Positions 13,824-25,930 of a stretch of 29,156 nucleotides of DNA are shown one piece after another (position 1 is the stretch's first letter; each line of letters opens with the position of its first letter). The translations under genes were made by a program, and so were the position numbers. Source of the stretch: a virus; the IMG/VR virus record IMGVR_UViG_3300020435_000218, positions 1-29,156 of that record. The stretch is one strand, 5' to 3'. The notes below the pieces were generated by a model that saw only the letters and a program-made list of their open reading frames with translations, was not told the origin of the DNA and ran no database searches.

Positions 13824-14216
13824 ATGGCTACTACATACGGAAAAGATTACGTTGATTTTGACATGGATTTTACAAAACATCCATCTCATGGAGATTTGTC
13901 TACTGTCAAAAAATCAACAGCTATTAGTAGGTCTATACGAAACCTATTAAGTACGCAAGCAAATGAAAGATTATTTCAACCAAATATGGATAGTGGTATT
14001 GGAATTCTTTTATTTGAAAACTTTAGTAAGCTTACTTCAGCTAGACTAGAAAAAGCAATTAGATATACTATAGAAAAATATGAGCCTAGAGCAAGAATAG
14101 CGAACGTAACCGTAAATGCCAGAGAAGAAGAAAATGCGTATGAGGTAATTATAGTTTATTTACCAGACAACGATATACAAGAAACAAACTTAGAAGTCTA
14201 TTTGGAGAGGACATAG
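13824..14216 (+). CDS. gp25: Baseplate wedge subunit gp25
   Basis: The 130-residue protein matches gp25/GPW_gp25 (T4 gp25: 132 residues). It contains STAISRSIRNLLSTQANERL, NMDSGIGILLFENFS, and the family's EPR motif (residues 87-89) in IRYTIEKYEPRARIANVTVN, with a closing edge strand. gp25 binds the gp6 dimer and starts sheath polymerisation; its EPR motif is conserved into the type VI secretion TssE proteins. It is followed by gp6 after six bases. The 25-base gap upstream holds CTAAATA (13804-13810), a possible degenerate late promoter, and a weak AAGAG ribosome site. Confidence 0.95.
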   Translation: MATTYGKDYVDFDMDFTKHPSHGDLSTVKKSTAISRSIRNLLSTQANERLFQPNMDSGIGILLFENFSKLTSARLEKAIRYTIEKYEPRARIANVTVNAREEENAYEVIIVYLPDNDIQETNLEVYLERT

Positions 14217-14222
14217 ATACAC

Positions 14223-16100
14223 ATGGCAAGCTCAGATGGTAAACTCAATATATCAGAATTAGACTTCACAAAAATTAAAGAAAATCTTTCAGGATTTTTA
14301 ACAAGTCAATCTGAATTCGTAGGATATAATTTTTCGGGATCTTCTTTTGATGTTCTCCTGGATATAATGGCATATAATACTCATTACAATTCATATTATG
14401 CAAATATGGTTGCTAATGAGATGTTTCTAGATTCCGCTTCTCTTAGAAATTCTGTTGTATCAAGAGCTAAACATCTTGGTTATAGACCCCGTTCAGCACA
14501 GGGATCAAAGGCTGCGGTAACTCTTACTATTACTCCAACCGATTCTCCGTCCTCTATAAACATTCCTAAAAATACACAGTTTCAAGGAGAAGTGGGAGGT
14601 GTATCATTTATTTGGTGTAGTTCTAATTCTCACTCAGTAAACATCAATGCTAATAATGTTTATACGGTTGCCGGTGTAGATCTTACACAGGGAATTCCTT
14701 CAACATTTAGATATACTGCAAATACAGGAGATTCAGATCAAAGATATCTTCTTCCTAATGCAAATACAGATATAACTACTTTAGCAGTTTCAGTCCAAAA
14801 TTCAGCTGTTGATACCGAAACAGTAGTATATACTGAAGCTACTGATATCACTACTGTAAACTCCATTTCAACAGTTTATTTTGTAGATGAAGTAGAAGAT
14901 GGAAAATATGAAGTTCAATTTGGTGATGGAATATTAGGGAAAACATTAGCAAATGGAAATATTGTTATATTGTCAAGTTTAATATGTGAAGCTGATGTGA
15001 CTAATGGAGCTAAAGCATTTTCTGTTGTATCTGATGTTGGTGGATATTCTAATGTAAAAATAGAAACCACATCTACCGCTTCAGGTGGAGCAGGTTCTGC
15101 AGACATTGATGAGATTAAATTCAATGCACCCAAAAATTTTGATGCACAAAATCGATGTGTTACAATTCATGATTATGTGGCTTTAGTTAAAAGAGATTAT
15201 GGTGATGCACAGGCAGTTGTTGCTTGGGGTGGAGAAGATGCAGATCCTCCAGCCTATGGAAAAGTTTATGTCGCAATTAAACCAACATCTGGAACAGTTC
15301 TTTCACAATCTTCTAAAAAGTATGTTCAAGATGAAATATTGAAAAAAAGAAATATTGTTGGAATTACTCCAGAAGTTGTAGATCCAGATTATATGTATTT
15401 AAGAGTTAATAGTACTGTCAAATATGATTCTGGGACAACTACAAATAGTGCTTCACAACTTAAAGCAACAGTAACCACAGCTGTTACAGATTTTGGAGAA
15501 ACCAATTTAAAAACTTTTGACAAATCATTTAGATATTCGAAGTTAATTCAGGCTATAGATGCCGCAGAGATTTCTGTTAAAAGTAATCAAACATCCCTTC
15601 AACTAAAAAGATATCTTTATCCACTATTGGGATCAAGTGAAGCCTATGTCTTACCATTTTCTAATCAAGTCTTTCATCCATCTAACAATTTTTGGGGCTC
15701 TGTTACTAGTGGTGAATTCTCGTATAGAGATTCTGCAAATACATTATGGGACAGCTGTAGACTACAAGATGCTAATGGAGTTGTTGAAGTATATAGAACT
15801 TCAGGAGAAGATCGAATTATTGTTAATAATAATGTAGGAACAATAACTTATCTTACTGGAAAAATGGAACTTTCGAGTTTTGAGCCAATTATTATAAATT
15901 CTGAGACTACTGGAAATACCACACCGCTTGAGGTTTTTATTACACCTGCTTCATCAGATGTTAATCCTCTCAGAGAACAAATTATATTAATCGAATCAGA
16001 CGATGTTACTATTACAATGTTGGATGATGCTGGAACAGGTACTTATGTAGAAGGTACTCTATCAACTACTGATGGTACAACTCTCTCAACCGGATATTAA
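14223..16100 (+). CDS. gp6: Baseplate wedge subunit gp6
   Basis: A 625-residue wedge protein (T4 gp6: 660). The N-terminal block is diagnostic: LDFTKIKENLSGFLTSQSEF followed by the GYNFSGSSFDVLLDIMAYNT segment and NMVANEMFLDSASLRNSVVS, ending LGYRPRSAQG (about residues 13-95). Next come a beta domain that includes YEVQFGDGILGKTLANGN and the baseplate-J-like part (RCVTIHDYVALVKRDYGDAQ, GKVYVAIKPTSG), then a C-terminal beta region. gp6 dimers form the inner ring of the baseplate with gp25 and gp53. GGAGAGG lies upstream of the start, within the end of gp25, so the two are co-translated. Confidence 0.95.
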   Translation: MASSDGKLNISELDFTKIKENLSGFLTSQSEFVGYNFSGSSFDVLLDIMAYNTHYNSYYANMVANEMFLDSASLRNSVVSRAKHLGYRPRSAQGSKAAVTLTITPTDSPSSINIPKNTQFQGEVGGVSFIWCSSNSHSVNINANNVYTVAGVDLTQGIPSTFRYTANTGDSDQRYLLPNANTDITTLAVSVQNSAVDTETVVYTEATDITTVNSISTVYFVDEVEDGKYEVQFGDGILGKTLANGNIVILSSLICEADVTNGAKAFSVVSDVGGYSNVKIETTSTASGGAGSADIDEIKFNAPKNFDAQNRCVTIHDYVALVKRDYGDAQAVVAWGGEDADPPAYGKVYVAIKPTSGTVLSQSSKKYVQDEILKKRNIVGITPEVVDPDYMYLRVNSTVKYDSGTTTNSASQLKATVTTAVTDFGETNLKTFDKSFRYSKLIQAIDAAEISVKSNQTSLQLKRYLYPLLGSSEAYVLPFSNQVFHPSNNFWGSVTSGEFSYRDSANTLWDSCRLQDANGVVEVYRTSGEDRIIVNNNVGTITYLTGKMELSSFEPIIINSETTGNTTPLEVFITPASSDVNPLREQIILIESDDVTITMLDDAGTGTYVEGTLSTTDGTTLSTGY

Positions 16101-16102
16101 AC

Positions 16103-19100
16103 GTGCCCGAAATCAAAGATAAAAAAGATGTATCTGTTTTATTAGAAACTCAATTACCAGAGTTTATCAGCGACAAACATCCTAAATTCAAAAAATTCAT
16201 AGAAAAATACTATGAATTTATGGAATCCCACCAACTTTATTTTGGTTCTACATTTAGATTTGATGAAGATAAGATAGTAAATGAATCAGATGGTACAAGC
16301 TATATTTTACGAGAAGAAGGTGAAGCCTGTGGAATACAATTAGAATCAGAACGTGACACAGCCGGTAATGCAAATCTCATGTTCACACTTGGAGAAACCC
16401 TTACGGGTGAGACAAGTGGATCAACCGCAGTTGTTACTGGTACAAAAGGTAATACTATTGCCTTTATAAAATCTACCAGTAGAGCCATGTTTGATTATGG
16501 AGAAAAGGTTACAGGTAGTATATCCCGCTCGTATGGTACTTTAGCAAATGGTATTGTAGATGGAACCTTCCCAGAAGGATCAGTAGAATCCTATCGTTCA
16601 AGAGCTCCCGCCGCCGCAATAAGAGAATTAGAGCAATCACAAGATATTGATACTACATGTAGTGGTCTTATTGATGATGCATGGAAAAAAGAATTTTATA
16701 CAAATGTTCCAAAGACAACGCAAGCTGATAGACGACAACTTCTTAAAAGAATGATTCAAGTTTATCGATCAAAGGGTAACGAAGCTTCTTTTGGTTGGTT
16801 ATTTAGAACTATCTTTGACAAAGAAGATATAGAATTTTATTATCCCAAAACAGACATGTTAAAAATGTCTGATGGAAGATGGGCACTTGATAAGTCAATT
16901 AAAATTGTAACATCCGGCGCGAATAATATTACTTTATTTACTGGCAGAAAAATCACAGGACAACTTTCTAAGTGTACAGCAATTGTCGAAAGTCAACTTA
17001 CTGAATTTGCCGGAGCTCTTGAAGTTACTGAATTAACCCTATCGGATGTTGTTCAGGGTGTAGTTGATGATGAATTATTTTTCTTTAAACCTAATGAACT
17101 TATTACCTCTGAAACTGATATAGATGGATTGTATGCAGAAGCAGTCACATCGGGGATTTTACAAACTGTTACTGTAGATGTTGGTGGAACCAATTATATT
17201 GTTGGTGATGAAATTCATGTTACTGGTGGTGGAGGCCAAGGCGCCCGCGCAAGAGTAGCATCGATTTTAGATTCTGTTGTTGAAGGTATTAATGTTATAG
17301 ATTCTGGAGATGGATATGCCGTAGGAGATGTGATTGATTTTATTAATGATGGAACCGGTGGAAGCGGTGCTGCAGGACAAATTCAAACAATTATTTCTAC
17401 AGGCGCAATATTAAGAAATACAGATCTTATATCTGCCTTTGCTTCAAAACTATTGTCATCCGCCGATTATGTAAATACATTTTCTGAACATAATGCTAAC
17501 ACTCATTTGTATGGTAATTCTTCTCTAATATTTTCTGCAGGAATTAAATCTGTTTCTGCCAAACTTTATAATAGTCAAGGTGCTTATGATGCTACACAAC
17601 ATATCCTTGCCGGAGATAGAATTGCGAAACAAGTAAGTGTAAACACATCAGGTGTAACCCTTACACAATCAGTAAAAACTGTTACTCTTTCTACAGGCCT
17701 CTCTGAGAATGAAAAAATAGATATTGTTGGTGGTAAGCTTACTTATGCAAATGCTAATACTACTCTTATTACTGGATTTTCTGCTAATAATGTCTTACTG
17801 GTTAGGGATGAACATACAATTGGAGCAGGTCAAACCTTCAGCGTTGATTATGCAAGTAATACTTATTGGGGTACAGTTATTAGTGCCAATACTACCGCAT
17901 TTTTATATTCTGTTGGTTCTTATTATCGAGATTCAGATATAGACGCCTTGACTGTACAGAATTTTGTTAATGATGATAATATCATAGTATATGATTCTAA
18001 ATTTACTAAGTTGGGGGCCGCGGCTGACGCGTCAAGGGATGATTCACATAATATGCATAACGGTGTTACCTTTCAAGTTGGTAATACTCCTGCCGCTGTA
18101 ACAACTAATACCTTTACTATGGTCGATGCTCATGGAGCATTGCCTGATTTAGAGTTAGTTTGTAATGGTGCTCTTAATATGACTTCAGTTAATGTTGGAG
18201 CAATCGATGCATTTGTTCTAACATCAGGTGGTGGAAAATATGAAACATCACCCCCTGTTTCTGTTGCTAATAGTTATACTCCAACTTTAGGAAATGCATT
18301 GGATGTAACAGGTGCACCTAATGCCTTACTTAATTTAAATTTACATTCATTTACTTCAGGAACAATTGAACAAGATGGTAATGTAGTTACCTTAACTAGT
18401 GATGACTCTATAGTATTTCCGGACGCTAATTCTGGAGTACTTACACTTACATACGCAAATGGAGCAACAGATGAAATAACTGAAGTTACTAATTCTAGTG
18501 TTATTAGAGTAACTTCAGAGAAACTTTTTGGGGTTGGTACAGGAGATAATCCCGATAAAGAAACCTTTTCTCTTTCTTATATGGCTCTTGCGAATAATAT
18601 CGCACCCAATAGTTTACTCTATAATGATGATTATTCCGCCAGAGGAAGAGTTCTTGATTTTATAGACAATCCTACTTTACCCACACAAAATCCATATATT
18701 GCTAATGGTAATACGACCATTAGAGTGGATATGTTAACCACTCAAGATTTTGGTGGTGTTATAGAACACATATTATTAGAAGGAAAAGATTTTCATAAGG
18801 ATGTTTATAGCCATCAAAAACTTTTACTTGAACATCCAACAATTGGATCGCAACACGGTGGGGGAGGAATATTTTTAACAGAAGATTGTGTTGAATTTTT
18901 AGTAATGGAAGATGATGATCTCATTTGTAATGAATCAGATGAGTCAAGATTTTATTCAGAAGTTACTACGGGTGACCGTGTTACTGCATATAGCAATGGT
19001 ACTACCACATATACCACAGGAACTATTGCTCAATCGGGGACTACAGTTACAGGAGTAGGTACTATATTTCCAAATGATTTTGTTCGTGGAACTATTACCT

Positions 19101-22100
19101 ATTCAGGGGATGATGATACAACTTCAATAATTACAGGATATACTAATGCTACATCATTCACAGTTGAAGATTCTAAGACAGTATCAGCGGGTAACACATA
19201 TTCAATTACTTATAATCCTGTTAGAACGTGGGGAATAAATCGTGAAATTACACTAGCAGCTGGTGGTACAGGAAATAGAACGGTTACTGTAACAGAAGAA
19301 GCACACTATTTGAGGTCAGGTGATAAGGTTAAGATTACTGGATCTGGAACTGAGATTTTTAATGGTATATATCCAATTACTGTTGCGAACAATACTACTT
19401 ACACTTATACTTTACCAGAAGATACGGGAGTAACTTCACCTTCAGGTGAAATTAGATCGAGGCCGGTTTCATCAGTATGGCTCTCCACATCTAATGCAGT
19501 TTCAATGGATACCTCACCAAAAGGTAATAATGCTATAATTGAAGTTTCAGCTATTGCGATTGGTGCAATTCAATCCGCAGAAGTTTATGATTTTGGTGCA
19601 GGATATTCTTCTGTTCCAGCACTTTCAACTACTTCTGGTGATCAGAATGCCGAACTTACCGCAGGACTTGGTGCTTATGCAACATATCCTGGATATTACA
19701 CCGCCACACAAGGATTGCTTAGTGGTGTACCGAAGCTTCAGGATAATAAGTATTATCAAAATTTCTCTTATGTTCTAAAAACCGATTTTGATGTAAACGA
19801 TTTTCGTAATTCAGTAAAAAGATTGATCCACCCATCCGGCCTAATAATGTTTGGTGAATTGGCCATACGTACTAAGGTTTCAGCACAAATGTTTGATGCT
19901 GCTACTAATAATGTTGATGATATAGGAACTATTGTACAAGAAGGGCTGGATAATTATGGAAAAAAATATCATACTATTGTTCTAACTCAAAATGCAGCAA
20001 CCGCAAATGCTCAATATCGGTCTACGAATACTCAACCTGAATTTGAAATTTATACTGCGAGACATCCGTGGCAAGCAATGGATGCCAGACTTGAGACAGC
20101 CGATGAACAAAATCTACAGTTAGAAGACTTTAGAGATATCACATCTATAGTACGAAGCAATTCCACAATGTATGTGGTTACAGAATATTTACATGGATTA
20201 GAAGCCGGTGATACGATTAAAATTTCTGGAGATGAATCCGGTCAACAATTCAACAACAAATATACTGTTACAACATCGCCTACTACAAACACATATACTG
20301 TTACTCCATCACCGGATCATGGTGGCGATGTTGATCAAAACATGTATGATGGATATCTTTATGTTCAATTAGAAGATTTTGATACCGGTAATAATGTTCT
20401 TATGGAAGATGGTAATGAGTTGTTGATGGAACCTTCAGCTTATTTGAAATCTGAAATAACAGCATTTGCAGATGTTTTCCGTGCAGACGCAACAAATTGG
20501 GATTCACCCTTTGCCGGTAATCTTCAAAATGAAGATGATACTGAGATTTTACTTGAACGTGGAGGATCTTATCTCTATCCATCAATTCAATTTCCTGAAG
20601 CAGAGTCAGGAGTTATATCCATTGATGTGAGTTTCAATAGTGATGTTCTCCTTGAAGATGATAATGGAACTTATGGATGGGGATACCTCTTAGATGAAAA
20701 TTCCGGAGCATTAGGTACAGGGCCACAAAGATTTATTTCTCTTGAAGAAGATACACAAGGACCGGATCATCAATATGAAAGTATTCCGATTGTAGATACC
20801 CATGTAATGGAGACTTGGTTTAATTCTGCAAGAGATCATTTAATTTCTGAAAACGGCATAGATCGTTTCATGCATGAAGATGAAGGATTATTGACATTAG
20901 ATACTATACCAATTACTTATGATGCTTCCTTTACCAAACATATTAGAAACTTTGCACACTATAATTGTATTGTAGCAGAGGATGGTTCACCATTAATCAA
21001 TGAAGAAAGTATCGGGCCAATTGGAAGTAATACCTATTTTACAGTAGAAGATGAATATGGCCTACGACAAAATAAACGTACAGATTTAGAATTTGATCTT
21101 GTTGAGTCACTTAATTGGCATCTCTTAATGGAAGATGAAAATCATTTTGCTCAAGAAGTAGATGAAACACGATTCCTTACAGAAGAAAGCATTGTAAAAG
21201 TTTCTACACGCGAAATAAAGCCTCACCTTTATGATACAATGGGATATCATGTAAGGATGGAAAATGAGGATTATCTTGAACATGAAGATGGAACGCTGGC
21301 GATTATAGAAGCTAATCAAGTAGGGGTAGACTACCAAAGAATAGAATATAATCTTTATGAAACAATCTACTGGCACATAATGCAAGAAGATGGTGTAACA
21401 CACACCAGTCTTGAAGATGGTACACGTTTAACTACAGAAGATTTTAATTTAAAAGCAACTTCTTTATTACAACCACCAGTAAAAAACATATATGGTGTGG
21501 ACACTATGGGGTGGCATATAGAATTGGAAGATGCATCACTCCTTGCGACCCTTTCTAGAGTTGATATTACAGTAACCGCAGGTGGCTCCGGCCCCGCTTT
21601 TATATTTGATGGTACAGAGGCCGCTGTTCTTACACTTACAGGGCAAAGAACATATCGTTTTATTATGGAACATTCTTCATTGCGTCCCTCAGAGACAGAG
21701 GCAGATTGGCATCCCTTAAGATTTTCCAAAACACAAGATGGTGAATGGGGTCCGTCAGGAGACATGTCAGACGGTGGTGAAGATTATACAGAGGGAGTTA
21801 CAGTAAATGGTGAGCCAGGAGTATCAGGATCTTATGTTGAATTTACACCAACCAATCTAACTCAACTAGTTTATTATTTTTGTGATAGCCATAGTGGCAT
21901 GGGAGCAGAATTACATATTGTCGCTCAAGATGTTAGCACACAATATCTTGCAATGGAAGACTTTCATAAAGATTTGGGTCAAGTCAATCTTTCAAGAATT
22001 CTTCAAGACATTCCTGAAAATAAAGCTCCTGATATTACCAAACGTTATGTTACAGAAGAAGCACCAAGTGATATGCAAAGGTGGACACCAGCAAACCATG

Positions 22101-24199
22101 AATTAGATTATATTGAAACTTGGCAAGATACAGTTGTTACAAGAACTTTTGGTATGCAACCCTTTAGACCACATTATGTTTCAAACTGGGCTGACGCGGA
22201 ATTATCTTTTGTTGATGAGAAATTTACACAAGAGGATGATTCAGGAGTAATACTATTAGAACATCCTGTAACAAATCAAAATTACTTGCTTGCGGAAGAT
22301 TTTCCTGAATTGAATCAAGATGTACTAAACCTTCAAAGAGAACTTTTGGATGGAATATTATTAGAAGATTCTTTACAGACTTTAGGTACTATTGATGGTA
22401 GACAATATGATTATATTCAACTTGAAGAAATGGTAGAACATCAAGTAATAAGCCTTGAAGATATTGTTCCAGCTTTTGGAAATAACCCTGGCGATCTATA
22501 TTCACTTAATGGAATTCGTCAAGCGCCGATTACTATGGAACGTTTTCAAATTACTAGATTTGATATGAGTCATTCTACAGTTATAGAACATCCAATAGCA
22601 CTTTCAACTACAGAAGATGGTACTCATGGCGGTGGTGTGGAATTTACATCCGGAATGACTGCTGATCGAGTGACATACAACGTAAAAAGTCTTGAAGATA
22701 TTGTTCCACCTTTTGGAAATAACCCTGGCGATTTATTTGATGTTGATGGAGTCCAGAAACCAGAGATTAATTTTTCGAATCGAAACCAAGCTCTTAGAAT
22801 TGAAGTAAGTGATGCAACAATGTCGGAACATCCAGTAGCACTTTCAACAACAAGTGATGGTACTCATAATAGTGGTGTAGCATATACGGCCGGACAGGTT
22901 TCAGCTAATAGTACGTTTATAGTAGAAAGTCTTGAAGATATAACTGATCCTTTTGGAAACAATCCTGGGGACCTGTATGCAGTTGGACTACAAGGATCAG
23001 CTCTAACTCAGCAACCAACATTGATTTTTCCTAATCGACTAGGAGTAATAAGATTTGATACAAGCGATTCCACATTGAGTGAACATCCATTTAGACTTTC
23101 AACAACAAGTGATGGTACTCATAATGGTGGTGTGGAATACACAACCGGAAAAACTATTGTTGGTACGCCAGGACAGAATGGATCTTATACCGATTATGTA
23201 TTGAGTAGAACTACACCAAATACATTATATTATTATTGTCATACTCATGAAGGAATGGGAAATTCAATTACAGTTGCACAAACATCGTATTATGAATGGA
23301 AATTTGATATTAATACACCGAATACATTATATTATTATTGTACCTCTCATGAAGGAATGGGAAATCAAATTAATATTGCAGAAGAATTGTATGCAGAATA
23401 CTATCTTGGAGGAGACGCGCCAGATCTATTATATTATTATTGCGAAATGCATGAAGGAATGGGGAATAAAATTAATGTTGTTGATAGGTCAGGAAATAAG
23501 AGAGCATTACTAGAAACAGCCAAACCAGTTGCAGAAGGTTATGGTGTAGAATATACTCCAACTCAAGCTTGGTCTGTTCTTCCTGCATATCGATATAGTA
23601 GAATATTAACGAGAATGAAGGGCACAATTTCTTTCTCACACATGGGAACTACTGGAACTGGATCTGGAAGTGAATTTACTGAACAACTTAGGGTTGGAGA
23701 AGAATTTCAAACATTAGATGAAAATATTATAGATGAAGATTCTGGTGGAGGTATATTATTAGAAACTGATGAAAGAATAGAAGCCGAAGAAATTCGAATT
23801 ATTCATGTACAAAATGAAGACCTTGCTCAAGATTTATTGGGATGTCAAATTAGAAATTTTCGATGGTTAATAACCACAGAAGATACAACAGTTGCCGCGC
23901 ATGGTACTCATGCCGGGGTCACCGGAGAGTATTCAGCATTCGATACTTCTGCGGAAAGTTTTTGGATTACTACTGATGCAACTAACCAAGCTCTTATAGT
24001 TGGTTTAAATCATGAAGTTGGGGTCCTTGAACAAGAAACTCCCGATTGGGAAAATATTAATATGCTTTGGGAAGACGGGTCAAAAATGACAGTTATAGAT
24101 GCACAAGCCTTTATTGTGAAGACTATTACTAATGATCTTGAACTTGAAGTAACTAGAAAACATATTGGTGGTACTGATAACGTAACCTACCAATTGTAA
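16103..24199 (+). CDS. Giant baseplate-associated structural protein (2698 aa) in the gp7 position, with cupredoxin-like repeats
   Basis: A 2698-residue protein starting at a GTG three bases after gp6. Residues 1-45 form a helix (PKFKKFIEKYYEFMESHQ). Residues 185-265 are a helical domain (ADRRQLLKRMIQVYRSKGNE, ASFGWLFRTIFDKEDIEFYY) followed by SDGRW, a type I associate with the protein after gp6 in marine T4-like phages. Residues about 355-430 repeat a GGxxYxVGD pattern. The middle is beta-rich modules. Residues 1620-1810 hold five degenerate YH/WHxxxED repeats. Residues 1818-1940 are a cupredoxin-like domain (H1870, C1927, H1930, M1933). Residues 2117-2460 hold separated and joined halves of such domains. 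In T4 this slot is gp7 (1032 residues, wedge initiator), and by synteny it may play that role; no sequence likeness to T4 gp7 is visible. The reading frame has no break, so it is one gene. Confidence 0.88.
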   Translation: MPEIKDKKDVSVLLETQLPEFISDKHPKFKKFIEKYYEFMESHQLYFGSTFRFDEDKIVNESDGTSYILREEGEACGIQLESERDTAGNANLMFTLGETLTGETSGSTAVVTGTKGNTIAFIKSTSRAMFDYGEKVTGSISRSYGTLANGIVDGTFPEGSVESYRSRAPAAAIRELEQSQDIDTTCSGLIDDAWKKEFYTNVPKTTQADRRQLLKRMIQVYRSKGNEASFGWLFRTIFDKEDIEFYYPKTDMLKMSDGRWALDKSIKIVTSGANNITLFTGRKITGQLSKCTAIVESQLTEFAGALEVTELTLSDVVQGVVDDELFFFKPNELITSETDIDGLYAEAVTSGILQTVTVDVGGTNYIVGDEIHVTGGGGQGARARVASILDSVVEGINVIDSGDGYAVGDVIDFINDGTGGSGAAGQIQTIISTGAILRNTDLISAFASKLLSSADYVNTFSEHNANTHLYGNSSLIFSAGIKSVSAKLYNSQGAYDATQHILAGDRIAKQVSVNTSGVTLTQSVKTVTLSTGLSENEKIDIVGGKLTYANANTTLITGFSANNVLLVRDEHTIGAGQTFSVDYASNTYWGTVISANTTAFLYSVGSYYRDSDIDALTVQNFVNDDNIIVYDSKFTKLGAAADASRDDSHNMHNGVTFQVGNTPAAVTTNTFTMVDAHGALPDLELVCNGALNMTSVNVGAIDAFVLTSGGGKYETSPPVSVANSYTPTLGNALDVTGAPNALLNLNLHSFTSGTIEQDGNVVTLTSDDSIVFPDANSGVLTLTYANGATDEITEVTNSSVIRVTSEKLFGVGTGDNPDKETFSLSYMALANNIAPNSLLYNDDYSARGRVLDFIDNPTLPTQNPYIANGNTTIRVDMLTTQDFGGVIEHILLEGKDFHKDVYSHQKLLLEHPTIGSQHGGGGIFLTEDCVEFLVMEDDDLICNESDESRFYSEVTTGDRVTAYSNGTTTYTTGTIAQSGTTVTGVGTIFPNDFVRGTITYSGDDDTTSIITGYTNATSFTVEDSKTVSAGNTYSITYNPVRTWGINREITLAAGGTGNRTVTVTEEAHYLRSGDKVKITGSGTEIFNGIYPITVANNTTYTYTLPEDTGVTSPSGEIRSRPVSSVWLSTSNAVSMDTSPKGNNAIIEVSAIAIGAIQSAEVYDFGAGYSSVPALSTTSGDQNAELTAGLGAYATYPGYYTATQGLLSGVPKLQDNKYYQNFSYVLKTDFDVNDFRNSVKRLIHPSGLIMFGELAIRTKVSAQMFDAATNNVDDIGTIVQEGLDNYGKKYHTIVLTQNAATANAQYRSTNTQPEFEIYTARHPWQAMDARLETADEQNLQLEDFRDITSIVRSNSTMYVVTEYLHGLEAGDTIKISGDESGQQFNNKYTVTTSPTTNTYTVTPSPDHGGDVDQNMYDGYLYVQLEDFDTGNNVLMEDGNELLMEPSAYLKSEITAFADVFRADATNWDSPFAGNLQNEDDTEILLERGGSYLYPSIQFPEAESGVISIDVSFNSDVLLEDDNGTYGWGYLLDENSGALGTGPQRFISLEEDTQGPDHQYESIPIVDTHVMETWFNSARDHLISENGIDRFMHEDEGLLTLDTIPITYDASFTKHIRNFAHYNCIVAEDGSPLINEESIGPIGSNTYFTVEDEYGLRQNKRTDLEFDLVESLNWHLLMEDENHFAQEVDETRFLTEESIVKVSTREIKPHLYDTMGYHVRMENEDYLEHEDGTLAIIEANQVGVDYQRIEYNLYETIYWHIMQEDGVTHTSLEDGTRLTTEDFNLKATSLLQPPVKNIYGVDTMGWHIELEDASLLATLSRVDITVTAGGSGPAFIFDGTEAAVLTLTGQRTYRFIMEHSSLRPSETEADWHPLRFSKTQDGEWGPSGDMSDGGEDYTEGVTVNGEPGVSGSYVEFTPTNLTQLVYYFCDSHSGMGAELHIVAQDVSTQYLAMEDFHKDLGQVNLSRILQDIPENKAPDITKRYVTEEAPSDMQRWTPANHELDYIETWQDTVVTRTFGMQPFRPHYVSNWADAELSFVDEKFTQEDDSGVILLEHPVTNQNYLLAEDFPELNQDVLNLQRELLDGILLEDSLQTLGTIDGRQYDYIQLEEMVEHQVISLEDIVPAFGNNPGDLYSLNGIRQAPITMERFQITRFDMSHSTVIEHPIALSTTEDGTHGGGVEFTSGMTADRVTYNVKSLEDIVPPFGNNPGDLFDVDGVQKPEINFSNRNQALRIEVSDATMSEHPVALSTTSDGTHNSGVAYTAGQVSANSTFIVESLEDITDPFGNNPGDLYAVGLQGSALTQQPTLIFPNRLGVIRFDTSDSTLSEHPFRLSTTSDGTHNGGVEYTTGKTIVGTPGQNGSYTDYVLSRTTPNTLYYYCHTHEGMGNSITVAQTSYYEWKFDINTPNTLYYYCTSHEGMGNQINIAEELYAEYYLGGDAPDLLYYYCEMHEGMGNKINVVDRSGNKRALLETAKPVAEGYGVEYTPTQAWSVLPAYRYSRILTRMKGTISFSHMGTTGTGSGSEFTEQLRVGEEFQTLDENIIDEDSGGGILLETDERIEAEEIRIIHVQNEDLAQDLLGCQIRNFRWLITTEDTTVAAHGTHAGVTGEYSAFDTSAESFWITTDATNQALIVGLNHEVGVLEQETPDWENINMLWEDGSKMTVIDAQAFIVKTITNDLELEVTRKHIGGTDNVTYQL
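20960..21520 (+). repeat. Degenerate ~45-residue repeats (WHxxxED...EDGTxLxTE) in the giant protein
   Basis: Five related units begin at residues 1620 (YNCIVAEDGSPLINEES), 1672 (WHLLMEDENHFAQEVDETRF), 1715 (YHVRMENEDYLEHEDGTL), 1757 (WHIMQEDGVTHTSLEDGTRL) and 1804 (WHIELEDASLL). Spacings are 52, 43, 42 and 47 residues. Each starts with an aromatic residue, usually followed by His, then an ED pair, then a second acidic block with Leu. The copies are diverged at DNA level, so the array is old. Confidence 0.65.
21554..21922 (+). other. Cupredoxin-like domain A inside the giant protein
   Basis: Residues 1818-1940 run SRVDITVTAGG, AFIFDG, LTLTGQRTYRFIMEHSS, WHPLRFS (H1870), a glycine-rich loop, GSYVEFTPTN and VYYFCDSHSGMGAELHIV (C1927, H1930, M1933). 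The His upstream and the Cys-x2-His-x2-Met loop between the last two strands match the type 1 copper ligand set with the spacing of amicyanin. Copper binding is inferred from ligand pattern only. Confidence 0.6.
22451..23212 (+). repeat. Three tandem ~80-residue repeats (SLEDI..FGNNPGDL plus cupredoxin front half)
   Basis: Units start at 22451, 22688 and 22928 (237- and 240-base periods; the third is longer and runs into a complete domain). Each opens SLEDI and FGNNPGDL and continues with a front-half cupredoxin-like segment containing EHPxxLSTTxDGTH (H2163, H2243, H2328). The first two units stop after a short strand and lack the Cys-x2-His-x2-Met loop; the third proceeds to it. Nucleotide identity is high in the first 45 bases of each unit, suggesting recent duplication. 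Confidence 0.8.
23213..23480 (+). repeat. Three 102-base tandem repeats of the cupredoxin back half (YYYCxxHEGMGN)
   Basis: Units start at 23213, 23315 and 23417, exactly 34 codons apart. Each encodes LYYYC-x2-HEGMGN-x-I-x-V/I with the Cys/His/Met triads C2379/H2382/M2385, C2413/H2416/M2419 and C2447/H2450/M2453. Only the first is attached to a front half; the second and third are preceded by short strands (YYEWKFDI; YAEYYLGG) in place of one. Confidence 0.85.
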
Positions 24200-24280: not shown

Positions 24281-25930
24281 ATGCCTGCTATAGTAACCAA
24301 TAAATTCAGAATCCACAACGCCAAACAGTTTGTAGAGGCTTTTGATGAAGTATCTACAACCTCTGGCGCTGCAATAACTGATGCAAGTGGGTTACTTAAT
24401 ACTAATATGTACTTATTTATTGGTAAAGTAACCAGCTGGGCGGATGATACAGCACCGCCTACTCCTACTGATTCCGTTTCCAATACAGTCTACAATCACT
24501 GGAGAGACATGATTGCAGCTAAGAAAATTGGATCTACGGATGTCAGTCATGTCGCACCACGTTATAATTGGACAACGGGTTCTAATTACTTTGCATATAC
24601 TCATGCAAACAACGCTCTGTTCGATCAACAATTTTACGTGATGACAGATGACTATAACGTATACAAGTGTCTCGCCAACAATAACGCTGGTGGAACATCT
24701 ACTACAAAACCTACTGGAACAGGAACAACCATTATTTCAACTGCTGACAGTTATAAATGGAAGTTCATGTATCAGATCTCAGCCGCAAGAGCTCTTAAAT
24801 TTGTAACACCAAGTTACATACCCACTCAAAGAGTACGGAAAGCAAACAATGCAATTGCAAATACTACTGACTCATCTTTTCAGTATGATGTTGAAATTGC
24901 AGCAAATACATCAGGTAATGGTGCAATTGAAGTGGCTCACGTAACTGCTGGTGGAAGTGCTTACACATTTGAAGTTGGGACAGTTCAATCAGGACATACA
25001 GAAACCACAACTACTTGTAAAATTACAGGTAGTGGTTTAGCAACTGATGCAATTGTCAATAACGACATTTACTTTACTTCAGATGCCGGTAGTGGTGTTA
25101 CGGGTAAAGGTGGAACAATTACCGATTTCCAATCGGGCACTAAAGTAGTAACTTTCGCACCTGCATTAGCAAGTGCAAACGTTCCAGCTGATGGTGACGG
25201 ATATTCTATCGGTCCTAAAATCTCAATTACTGGTGATGGACATGGAGCAAATGTTCGTGCAACCAATACTGCATCTGGTGTTATTGGTGATATTGTGGTT
25301 GTTGCCGGTGGTAACAATTATGGTAACGCTGTAGCAACAGTTACTACAAATGCTGGTTCTTCCGGTTCTATTTCTCCAATTATCGGCCCACGTGGCGGAC
25401 ATGGAGATGATTCAATTGAAGAACTCGGTGGATTTTTTGTCATGGTTAACAGTAGATTGGAATATGGAGAATCTGGAAACTTTACTACAAACAACGATTT
25501 CCGTAAAATTGGATTGTTAGCACAACCATTGTATGCCAATGGTGATGTTGCAACAGCTACAACTGCTGATCAATGTGTAACTGTTACTGTTCAATCTTGG
25601 AATAGTACAGCATTTGCAGAAGATGAAGTTGTAACAGGATCAGCTTCAGCTGCTACTGGTAAAGTTGTTGACTTCAAAAATAACACAACTCTAAGATTGG
25701 TTGATGTTACTATGGGAGGAAACACTACTGTTGGATATGACGCTATTGCCGGAGCATTTCAAGCAAATGAAACTATTACGGCACCAAGTGGAGCATCAGC
25801 AAATACAAATGGTGTAGTTGGTGGTGATTTCGAGAAATTTTCTGGAGATGTTCTTTACATTGAGAACCGTTCACCCGTAACAAGAGCAGATGACCAAATA
25901 GAAGATGTTAAATTAATTATTGAATTCTAA
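24281..25930 (+). CDS. gp8: Baseplate wedge subunit gp8
   Basis: A 549-residue protein with the opening MPAIVTNKFRIHNAKQFVEA, MYLFIGKVTSWADD, PPTPTDSVSNTVYNHWRDMI, AAKKIGSTDVSHVAPRYNWT and FYVMTDDYNVYKCLANNN, GDxxKWKFMYQIS-like and PSYIPTQRV segments, which are characteristic of gp8 of T4-like marine phages. T4 gp8 is 334 residues; the extra length is a block of beta modules from about residue 205 (VEVAHVTAGGSAYTFEVG-like strands, SITGDGHGANVRATNTASG). gp8 is a dimeric wedge component bound to gp7 and gp10 in T4. Strong ribosome site ATGGAGGAT about ten bases upstream; the gene has its own late promoter box. Confidence 0.88.
   Translation: MPAIVTNKFRIHNAKQFVEAFDEVSTTSGAAITDASGLLNTNMYLFIGKVTSWADDTAPPTPTDSVSNTVYNHWRDMIAAKKIGSTDVSHVAPRYNWTTGSNYFAYTHANNALFDQQFYVMTDDYNVYKCLANNNAGGTSTTKPTGTGTTIISTADSYKWKFMYQISAARALKFVTPSYIPTQRVRKANNAIANTTDSSFQYDVEIAANTSGNGAIEVAHVTAGGSAYTFEVGTVQSGHTETTTTCKITGSGLATDAIVNNDIYFTSDAGSGVTGKGGTITDFQSGTKVVTFAPALASANVPADGDGYSIGPKISITGDGHGANVRATNTASGVIGDIVVVAGGNNYGNAVATVTTNAGSSGSISPIIGPRGGHGDDSIEELGGFFVMVNSRLEYGESGNFTTNNDFRKIGLLAQPLYANGDVATATTADQCVTVTVQSWNSTAFAEDEVVTGSASAATGKVVDFKNNTTLRLVDVTMGGNTTVGYDAIAGAFQANETITAPSGASANTNGVVGGDFEKFSGDVLYIENRSPVTRADDQIEDVKLIIEF

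Follow-up and report, generated by a model that had tools for sequence, protein, structure and literature searches.

The window analysed here is the whole 29156-base stretch of the virus record IMGVR_UViG_3300020435_000218. It carries a T4-type baseplate cluster in which the gene of a 2698-aa protein, P0001, is placed between gp6 and gp8 (Table 1). Genes for hub, tube, tube-cap, wedge and tail-lysozyme proteins lie 5' of the cluster, and the window ends after gp8, inside the gene of a DUF4815 protein. P0001 matched the Pfam family Baseplate_wedge (E 4.5e-07) and the PHROG baseplate wedge subunit phrog_17744 (1.8e-41). The wedge matches were confined to the first 1274 residues, and the PHROGs matched over the cupredoxin-like domains further downstream were those of tail fibres. 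The wedge profile match and the gp25, gp6 and gp8 neighbours indicate a baseplate wedge protein of T4 type. A gp9/gp10-type N-terminal domain (T4_gp9_10_N) was absent from P0001 in a Pfam search at E 1. The YHYH domain, considered because of its reported presence in pelagiphage and jumbo-phage tails, gave no match to P0001 in Pfam at E 1. Residues 1340-2278 (20120-22937) are rich in acidic LED/MED-type motifs; P0001 has 35 'ED' pairs where its composition predicts 14.2, and 19 of its 22 [LMQTEH]ED motifs fall between residues 1340 and 2277.

The motif YYxCxxHxGMG was found four times in P0001, at C1927, C2379, C2413 and C2447. The corresponding DNA pattern was present four times in the forward direction, and neither on the reverse strand nor in a backward-read control was it found at all. 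Half-domain profiles parsed the protein as N-C, followed by N-N-N-C-C-C. A His half stands directly before the loop in only two of the four cases (C1927 and C2379), yielding two complete domains, A and N3-C1, which both contain a His, a Cys, a second His and an axial Met, with Cys-His-Met between the last two strands. A segment, STTSDGTHxGG, is conserved after the first His of the family. The initial annotation had described such loops in a phage baseplate protein, with Cys-x2-His-x2-Met spacing, a histidine 51-57 residues upstream and a beta strand on either side. The present analysis agrees on each count: all four loops lie within 21554-23480, the His-to-Cys distance is 57 residues in domain A (1870-1927) and 51 in N3-C1 (2328-2379), the N3-C1 loop falls between two predicted strands (E94-99 and E107-111, the cysteine being model position 99), and the gp25/gp6/gp8 cluster and wedge matches point to a baseplate protein.

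Table 1. Baseplate genes of the window and the domains and half repeats of P0001.
Feature	Residues	Position	Strand	Evidence or ligands
gp25 baseplate wedge		13824..14216	+	PF04965 1.3e-11
gp6 baseplate wedge		14223..16100	+	PF21379 2.6e-18; phrog_219 9.1e-168
P0001, domain-bearing baseplate protein	2698 aa	16103..24199	+	ORF, GTG start
Wedge-like part of P0001	169-1274	16607..19924	+	phrog_17744 match range
Complete cupredoxin-like domain A	1818-1945	21554..21937	+	H1870 21710-21712; C1927 21881-21883; H1930 21890-21892; M1933 21899-21901
N-half repeat N1	2117-2195	22451..22687	+	H2163 22589-22591; without Cys loop
N-half repeat N2	2196-2275	22688..22927	+	H2243 22829-22831; without Cys loop
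Complete cupredoxin-like domain N3-C1	2281-2395	22943..23287	+	H2328 23084-23086; C2379 23237-23239; H2382 23246-23248; M2385 23255-23257
C-half repeat C2	2393-2426	23279..23380	+	C2413/H2416/M2419; without His half before
C-half repeat C3	2427-2460	23381..23482	+	C2447/H2450/M2453
gp8 baseplate wedge		24281..25930	+	PF09215 2.8e-14; phrog_438 3.5e-101

Among the collected loci, the plain N-C unit was present in 116 ORFs. The N-N-N-C-C-C order was found there only in the P0001 virus (its own loci L001-L004) and in one other contig, IMGVR_UViG_3300032820_003074 (L005/L013), which was 99-100% identical over the matched stretches. The half repeats showed a dN/dS of about 0.4 to 0.8, and their synonymous sites were not saturated: at identical residues, N halves had 7 to 11 synonymous codon differences versus about 21 expected at codon-usage saturation, and C halves 3 to 4 versus 5.3 to 8.0 expected. 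Since saturation was not reached, the ligands retained in the spare halves are suggestive of use without proving it. When the whole array (366 aa) was modelled with AlphaFold, N3-C1 alone was confident (block pLDDT up to 95), and the other halves scored 26-46 because homologues align to N3-C1 only. In two viral copies (L105 and L109), inserted sequence separates the His half from the Cys-His-Met half and the ligands are retained, so the module, judged from these copies, tolerates splitting.

Relationship of the domain to cupredoxins

Profile comparisons were performed with three alignments: the P0001 family (A1, 86 sequences), pseudoazurin-type proteins (A2, eight) and HPFYI-type copper-binding domains (A3, three). 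The family matched the HPFYI type with an E of 8.9e-8, and the HPFYI type matched the pseudoazurins with 4.3e-12; the direct comparison of A1 with A2 gave 1.4e-4 at a probability of only 53%. Each comparison was controlled with 100 column shuffles, all of which scored below the real alignment. The first His, the Cys and the second His shared columns in all three, and the Met was shifted relative to A2, in which the loop has two more residues. The same links were obtained from the C-terminus of gp9, a relative described in the next section, which matched the HPFYI type at 9.8e-14 and, in 37 columns confined to the Cys-His half, the pseudoazurins at 8.9e-8. Across these two comparisons and that with the P0001 family, the gp9 C-terminus scored 45.9 to 96.8, and the best of 50 shuffles each 17.8 to 19.0. 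The ORF L242:5548-11070 of Prochlorococcus phage MED4-213 holds copies of both the window type and the HPFYI type, with all four ligands in both, and is a possible bridge between the two kinds of domain.

Cellular homologues from marine bacteria scored above the 21.2-bit cut-off of PF00127 (L223, 24.5; L229, 24.0; L201, 21.4; L223 and L201 being one protein). PF00127 matched 20 of the 86 family members weakly (best 0.0033), and neither P0001 at E 1 nor the domain searched alone. In NCBIfam, plastocyanin (0.082), amicyanin (0.14) and halocyanin (0.061) matched only weakly, and unrelated families did as well or better (best 0.027). A search of PDB sequences retrieved no cupredoxin, whether the query was one of the two domains, the family profile or gp9. 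At the level of sequence profiles, the family is homologous to cupredoxins.

The N3-C1 domain was modelled with AlphaFold on alignment A1. The predicted fold was a beta-sandwich of seven strands with a mean pLDDT of 85; in blocks of ten residues, values were 92 around the His, 93 to 95 in the strands before the loop, and 89 in the loop and last strand. In a structural ranking taken over 998 re-aligned chains, the top eight rows (Z 6.2-7.1) were seven rusticyanin entries (rmsd 2.4-2.8, 86-89 residues aligned; best Z 7.1, rmsd 2.5, 86 aligned) and one Hyphomicrobium nitrite reductase (Z 6.2, rmsd 3.7). Next came Ig-type folds, at Z 5.8 and below, which were not far under the rusticyanins and filled much of the Foldseek list, in which no match of the model to the PDB reached E 0.001. 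The fold comparison is not decisive by itself, and more weight is placed on the profile comparisons. The Ig-type matches speak for an Ig-like beta-sandwich with a chance C-x2-H-x2-M, a reading that we consider most improbable given the shuffle-controlled profile links, the PF00127 matches of the homologues and the conservation of the ligands. Against predicted viral structures the model gave 50 matches at E 0.001, several of them named cyanophage tail fibre or gp9 connector.

The type 1 copper proteins of PF00127 (plastocyanin, pseudoazurin, amicyanin) and rusticyanin, the best structural match, share with the modelled P0001 domain a beta-sandwich, a His before a strand and Cys-x2-His-x2-Met between the last two strands, and the His, Cys and His columns align. 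The spacing Cys-x2-His-x2-Met is that of amicyanin. The PF00127 proteins are small exported electron carriers, whereas the P0001 domains sit in a long virion-type protein, score below the PF00127 cut-off and belong to a family with the conserved STTSDGTHxGG segment.

Relatives, the gp9 connector and virus particles

Of 50,697 phage records, 296 matched the P0001 domain at E 0.01; 286 of these are named Synechococcus phage, Cyanophage or Prochlorococcus phage, 4 Methylophilales, 3 Pelagibacter, and 3 are others. In a genome search, 111 of 117 pattern matches encoded relatives, and 80 of the 111 were kept; titles of the genome records were mostly marine, including SAR86, other gammaproteobacteria, Bacteroidetes, Marine Group II archaea and Pelagibacter. 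Ten of the genome proteins were scanned, and four had cadherin-type domains and one had collagen repeats. Another of the ten, from a Pelagibacteraceae record (L184:3600-5360), is a tail fibre of T7-type phage (PF03906 7.6e-35) that carries the domain and probably stems from an integrated or co-binned phage.

The gp9-type tail-fibre connector of T4-like cyanophages (phrog_677) has a C-terminal domain of the same family as that of P0001 (hhalign 99%, E 8.9e-18), with all four ligands kept, and its gene neighbourhood resembles that of P0001. The two proteins differ in that P0001 matches phrog_677 only in the domain (2292-2393 to profile 318-410) and leaves T4_gp9_10_N unmatched at E 1. A domain-independent search was performed with the first 313 residues of S-SSM5 gp9. 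It gave at least 600 pattern matches and at least 572 relatives, and the best 80 of these were kept, 77 with a C-terminus of 70 or more residues and 3 cut by contig ends. All 56 unique C-termini from the best 80 of at least 572 relatives kept the four ligands while many neighbouring residues varied; the set consists of close relatives (70-100% identity), so the conservation partly reflects kinship.

Pelagibacter phage Mosig EXVC030M (QOI69069/QOI69068) has a locus with a similar order, in which gp25, a baseplate J protein at the gp6 place, a wedge-like protein and a domain-bearing fibre protein are followed by two small genes and then gp8. Its 874-aa wedge-like ORF shares several PHROG matches with the wedge part of P0001, and its 579-aa fibre protein combines a gp9-type N-terminus with the domain and all four ligands. 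Mosig thus has two genes, the second with the gp9-type N-terminus, where P0001 is one gene with half-domain repeats. Because the Mosig pair occupies the same place, P0001 looks like its fused counterpart.

Proteins of the family were also detected in virus particles. LC-MS of CsCl-purified particles of cyanophage S-SZBM1 is reported to have recovered S-SZBM1_206 (498 aa, 9 peptides, 24.9% coverage), S-SZBM1_53 (13 peptides) and S-SZBM1_208 (PMC9146016). S-SZBM1_206 is a gp9-type protein whose C-terminus has an intact site; S-SZBM1_53 and S-SZBM1_208 carry domain copies in which the site is lost. A protein with the intact site is thus present in virions of a relative, and P0001 itself is known only from sequence.

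Conservation and loss of the four residues

A scan was performed with a pattern of the N half that excludes the loop. At least 120 stretches were reduced to 109 after removal of 9 with insufficient flanking sequence and 2 that were unrelated, and these gave 102 unique copies. Among the matches listed, the His was present in 100 of 102, the Cys in 99 of 102, the second His in 99 of 102 and the Met in 95 of 100. A free variation of Cys, His and Met beside fixed glycine and tyrosines, named by the initial annotation as the pattern that would speak against a metal site, was not observed, all four ligands being intact in 98 of 103 N-half-scan copies among the matches listed and in 56 of 56 gp9 C-termini. 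The annotation's reading of a type 1 copper site was borne out in part, namely in the cupredoxin relation and the conserved complete ligand set; the working copper centre itself is weighed below as an alternative.

A larger set of 223 copies was obtained by making unique 238 of 280 aligned stretches, some of the contributing sets having been searched with patterns that possibly contain the loop. All four ligands were present in 209 of these 223. By source, they were intact in the N-half-scan copies at the rate given above, in 19 of 22 copies from isolates, 80 of 82 from genomes, 4 of 4 from the PF00127 search, both from P0001, and 6 of 10 from the searches that found contig IMGVR_UViG_3300032820_003074. 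Two of the 14 altered copies changed only the Met, to Gln and to His, and the other 12 lost two to four ligands; a single loss of the His, the Cys or the second His was not seen among the 223 copies. Gln is the axial ligand of stellacyanin.

The presence of the His was correlated with that of Cys, second His and Met at phi 0.73, 0.90 and 0.75 in the 223 copies; 68 long-range control column pairs averaged 0.16 and reached at most 0.58. In the 125 copies left without the loop-searched sets, the values were 0.58, 0.79 and 0.84 versus a control maximum of 0.53. When only the N-half scan was considered, in which five copies among the matches listed are altered, they were -0.02, 0.49 and 0.70 versus a control maximum of 0.50. 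Joint loss of the ligands is, in these alignments, clear in the larger sets and not in the N-half scan alone. Copies lacking two or more ligands had 0 to 7 changes at 16 to 18 other conserved columns, and the state of the site changed at least 8 times on a rough tree (FastTree, 103 columns, 98 of 220 inner branches open).

The 223-copy set required all four columns to be filled, so that copies with a replaced loop fell out; a recount with the S-SZBM1 proteins added gave 210 of 224 intact. Partial copies included the Syn33 and S-8S29 tail fibres, in which Thr and Asp replace His and Cys, S-SZBM1_53, with the His kept and the loop lost, and S-SZBM1_208, with Tyr and Asp. Among the split copies, L235 reads His/Cys/His/Glu and L231 has lost all four residues. 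Two further copies (L064 and L128) are cut by contig ends, and the N half of L221, a PF00127-type protein, was unaligned. Three gp7-type proteins (L230:6265-10425, L232:4897-9024 and L234:5923-9045) have two domain copies each, the first with all four ligands and the second with none, in which the DGWH segment is still recognisable.

The shared profile columns and the mostly joint loss argue for a single site formed by the four residues. Conservation for folding only, as a hydrogen-bonded loop or a reactive thiol and with no metal bound, is in our view quite unlikely. It would account for the conservation of surrounding residues, the persistence of copies without the site and the indistinct joint loss in the N-half scan; it fits poorly with the loss, above control columns in the larger sets, of a His and a loop some 51 residues apart, with the repeated state changes on the rough tree, and with the 0 to 7 changes at other conserved columns in copies lacking two or more ligands. 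Because some copies in virion and tail proteins have lost the site, the metal appears dispensable for some uses of the fold.

The predicted metal site and its possible role

Taken together, these results identify a cupredoxin-type domain with a conserved, predicted metal-type site in virion tails, and marine phage particles may carry bound metal, probably copper. We propose that the cupredoxin-type domain is an accessory beta-sandwich module of marine phage tail proteins, including the C-terminus of the gp9 connector, in which the four residues His...Cys-x2-His-x2-Met would work as a single metal site. The virion protein would fold in the host and acquire its metal, probably copper and possibly zinc, there, in the lysate or in seawater. 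The bound metal would lock the loop between the last two strands and give a rigid, stable connector or adhesion domain, and in P0001 a partial duplication of the module, half by half, would have produced three His halves and then three Cys-His-Met halves. We put the probability of this explanation as a whole at roughly 0.6. Within it, we infer metal binding, the identity of the metal and a mechanical or adhesive role, with copper suggested by the ligand set.

Metal sites have been reported in other phage tail proteins. Tail fibres that bind iron through HxH motifs, T4 gp37 among them, have solved or proposed metal sites with paired His and octahedral iron (PMC11705849), in contrast to the His-Cys-His-Met cupredoxin-type site of the P0001 family. 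The YHYH domain is reported to be associated with tail or baseplate and to have a predicted zinc site with a conserved His triad and Asp (PMC7824862, PMC7029224); it resembles the P0001 domains in its location and in having a predicted metal site and differs in the residues. Among the papers listed in our searches of the open-access literature, none described a phage-tail cupredoxin. The plastocyanin that some cyanophages encode in a gene of its own is distinct from the cupredoxin-type domain of gp9 and tail fibres.

A cupredoxin-type fold whose four residues bind zinc or another structural metal instead of copper is possible, if doubtful. Assembly of the virion would take place in the cytoplasm, which offers little free copper, and cupredoxin sites can take up zinc when expressed in E. 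coli; the ligand set is nevertheless that of copper, with amicyanin-like spacing, and the profile aligns with copper proteins.

A working type 1 copper centre with a function in infection would either make the tail-fibre connector a switch that responds to redox state or copper, or engage host copper uptake, the latter version being drawn by analogy with the iron 'Ferrojan/Trojan horse' idea. The complete ligand set with single losses only at the axial position, the 56 of 56 intact gp9 C-termini (from the best 80 of at least 572), and the placement at the fibre connector and in virions are consistent with such a centre, as is the iron precedent of the HxH fibres (PMC11705849). We regard it as unlikely, since the same kinds of protein also carry the domain with the site lost, and we know of no redox partner inside the virion. 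For the same reasons, namely the lack of a known redox partner and the use of the fold in copies that have lost the site, a stabilising, metal-locked connector or adhesion module is favoured over electron transfer, with a switch or a role in metal uptake being possible.

The analysis assigns a family to a domain that is unnamed by Pfam in gp9 connectors, baseplate proteins and tail fibres, and it gives a specific pattern, the site being kept in all gp9 C-termini examined (56 unique, from the best 80 of at least 572) and lost in some fibre and gp7-type copies. A far-reaching and speculative version, which we hold to be improbable as it stands, is that the particles of marine T4-type phages carry copper in gp9, whose type 1 site would be filled, with a copper state that would control fibre deployment or receptor engagement, and an N-N-N-C-C-C array that would build three sites from separated halves. 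A T4 particle has 18 gp9 copies, and the copper-carrying version would imply some 18 sites per particle if cyanophage gp9 is arranged in the same way. If the sites of the favoured metal-locked module do hold copper, they would offer a simple handle on how marine tail fibres work, and many marine cyanophages would carry tail-bound metal, which would link them to the trace-metal chemistry of the ocean.
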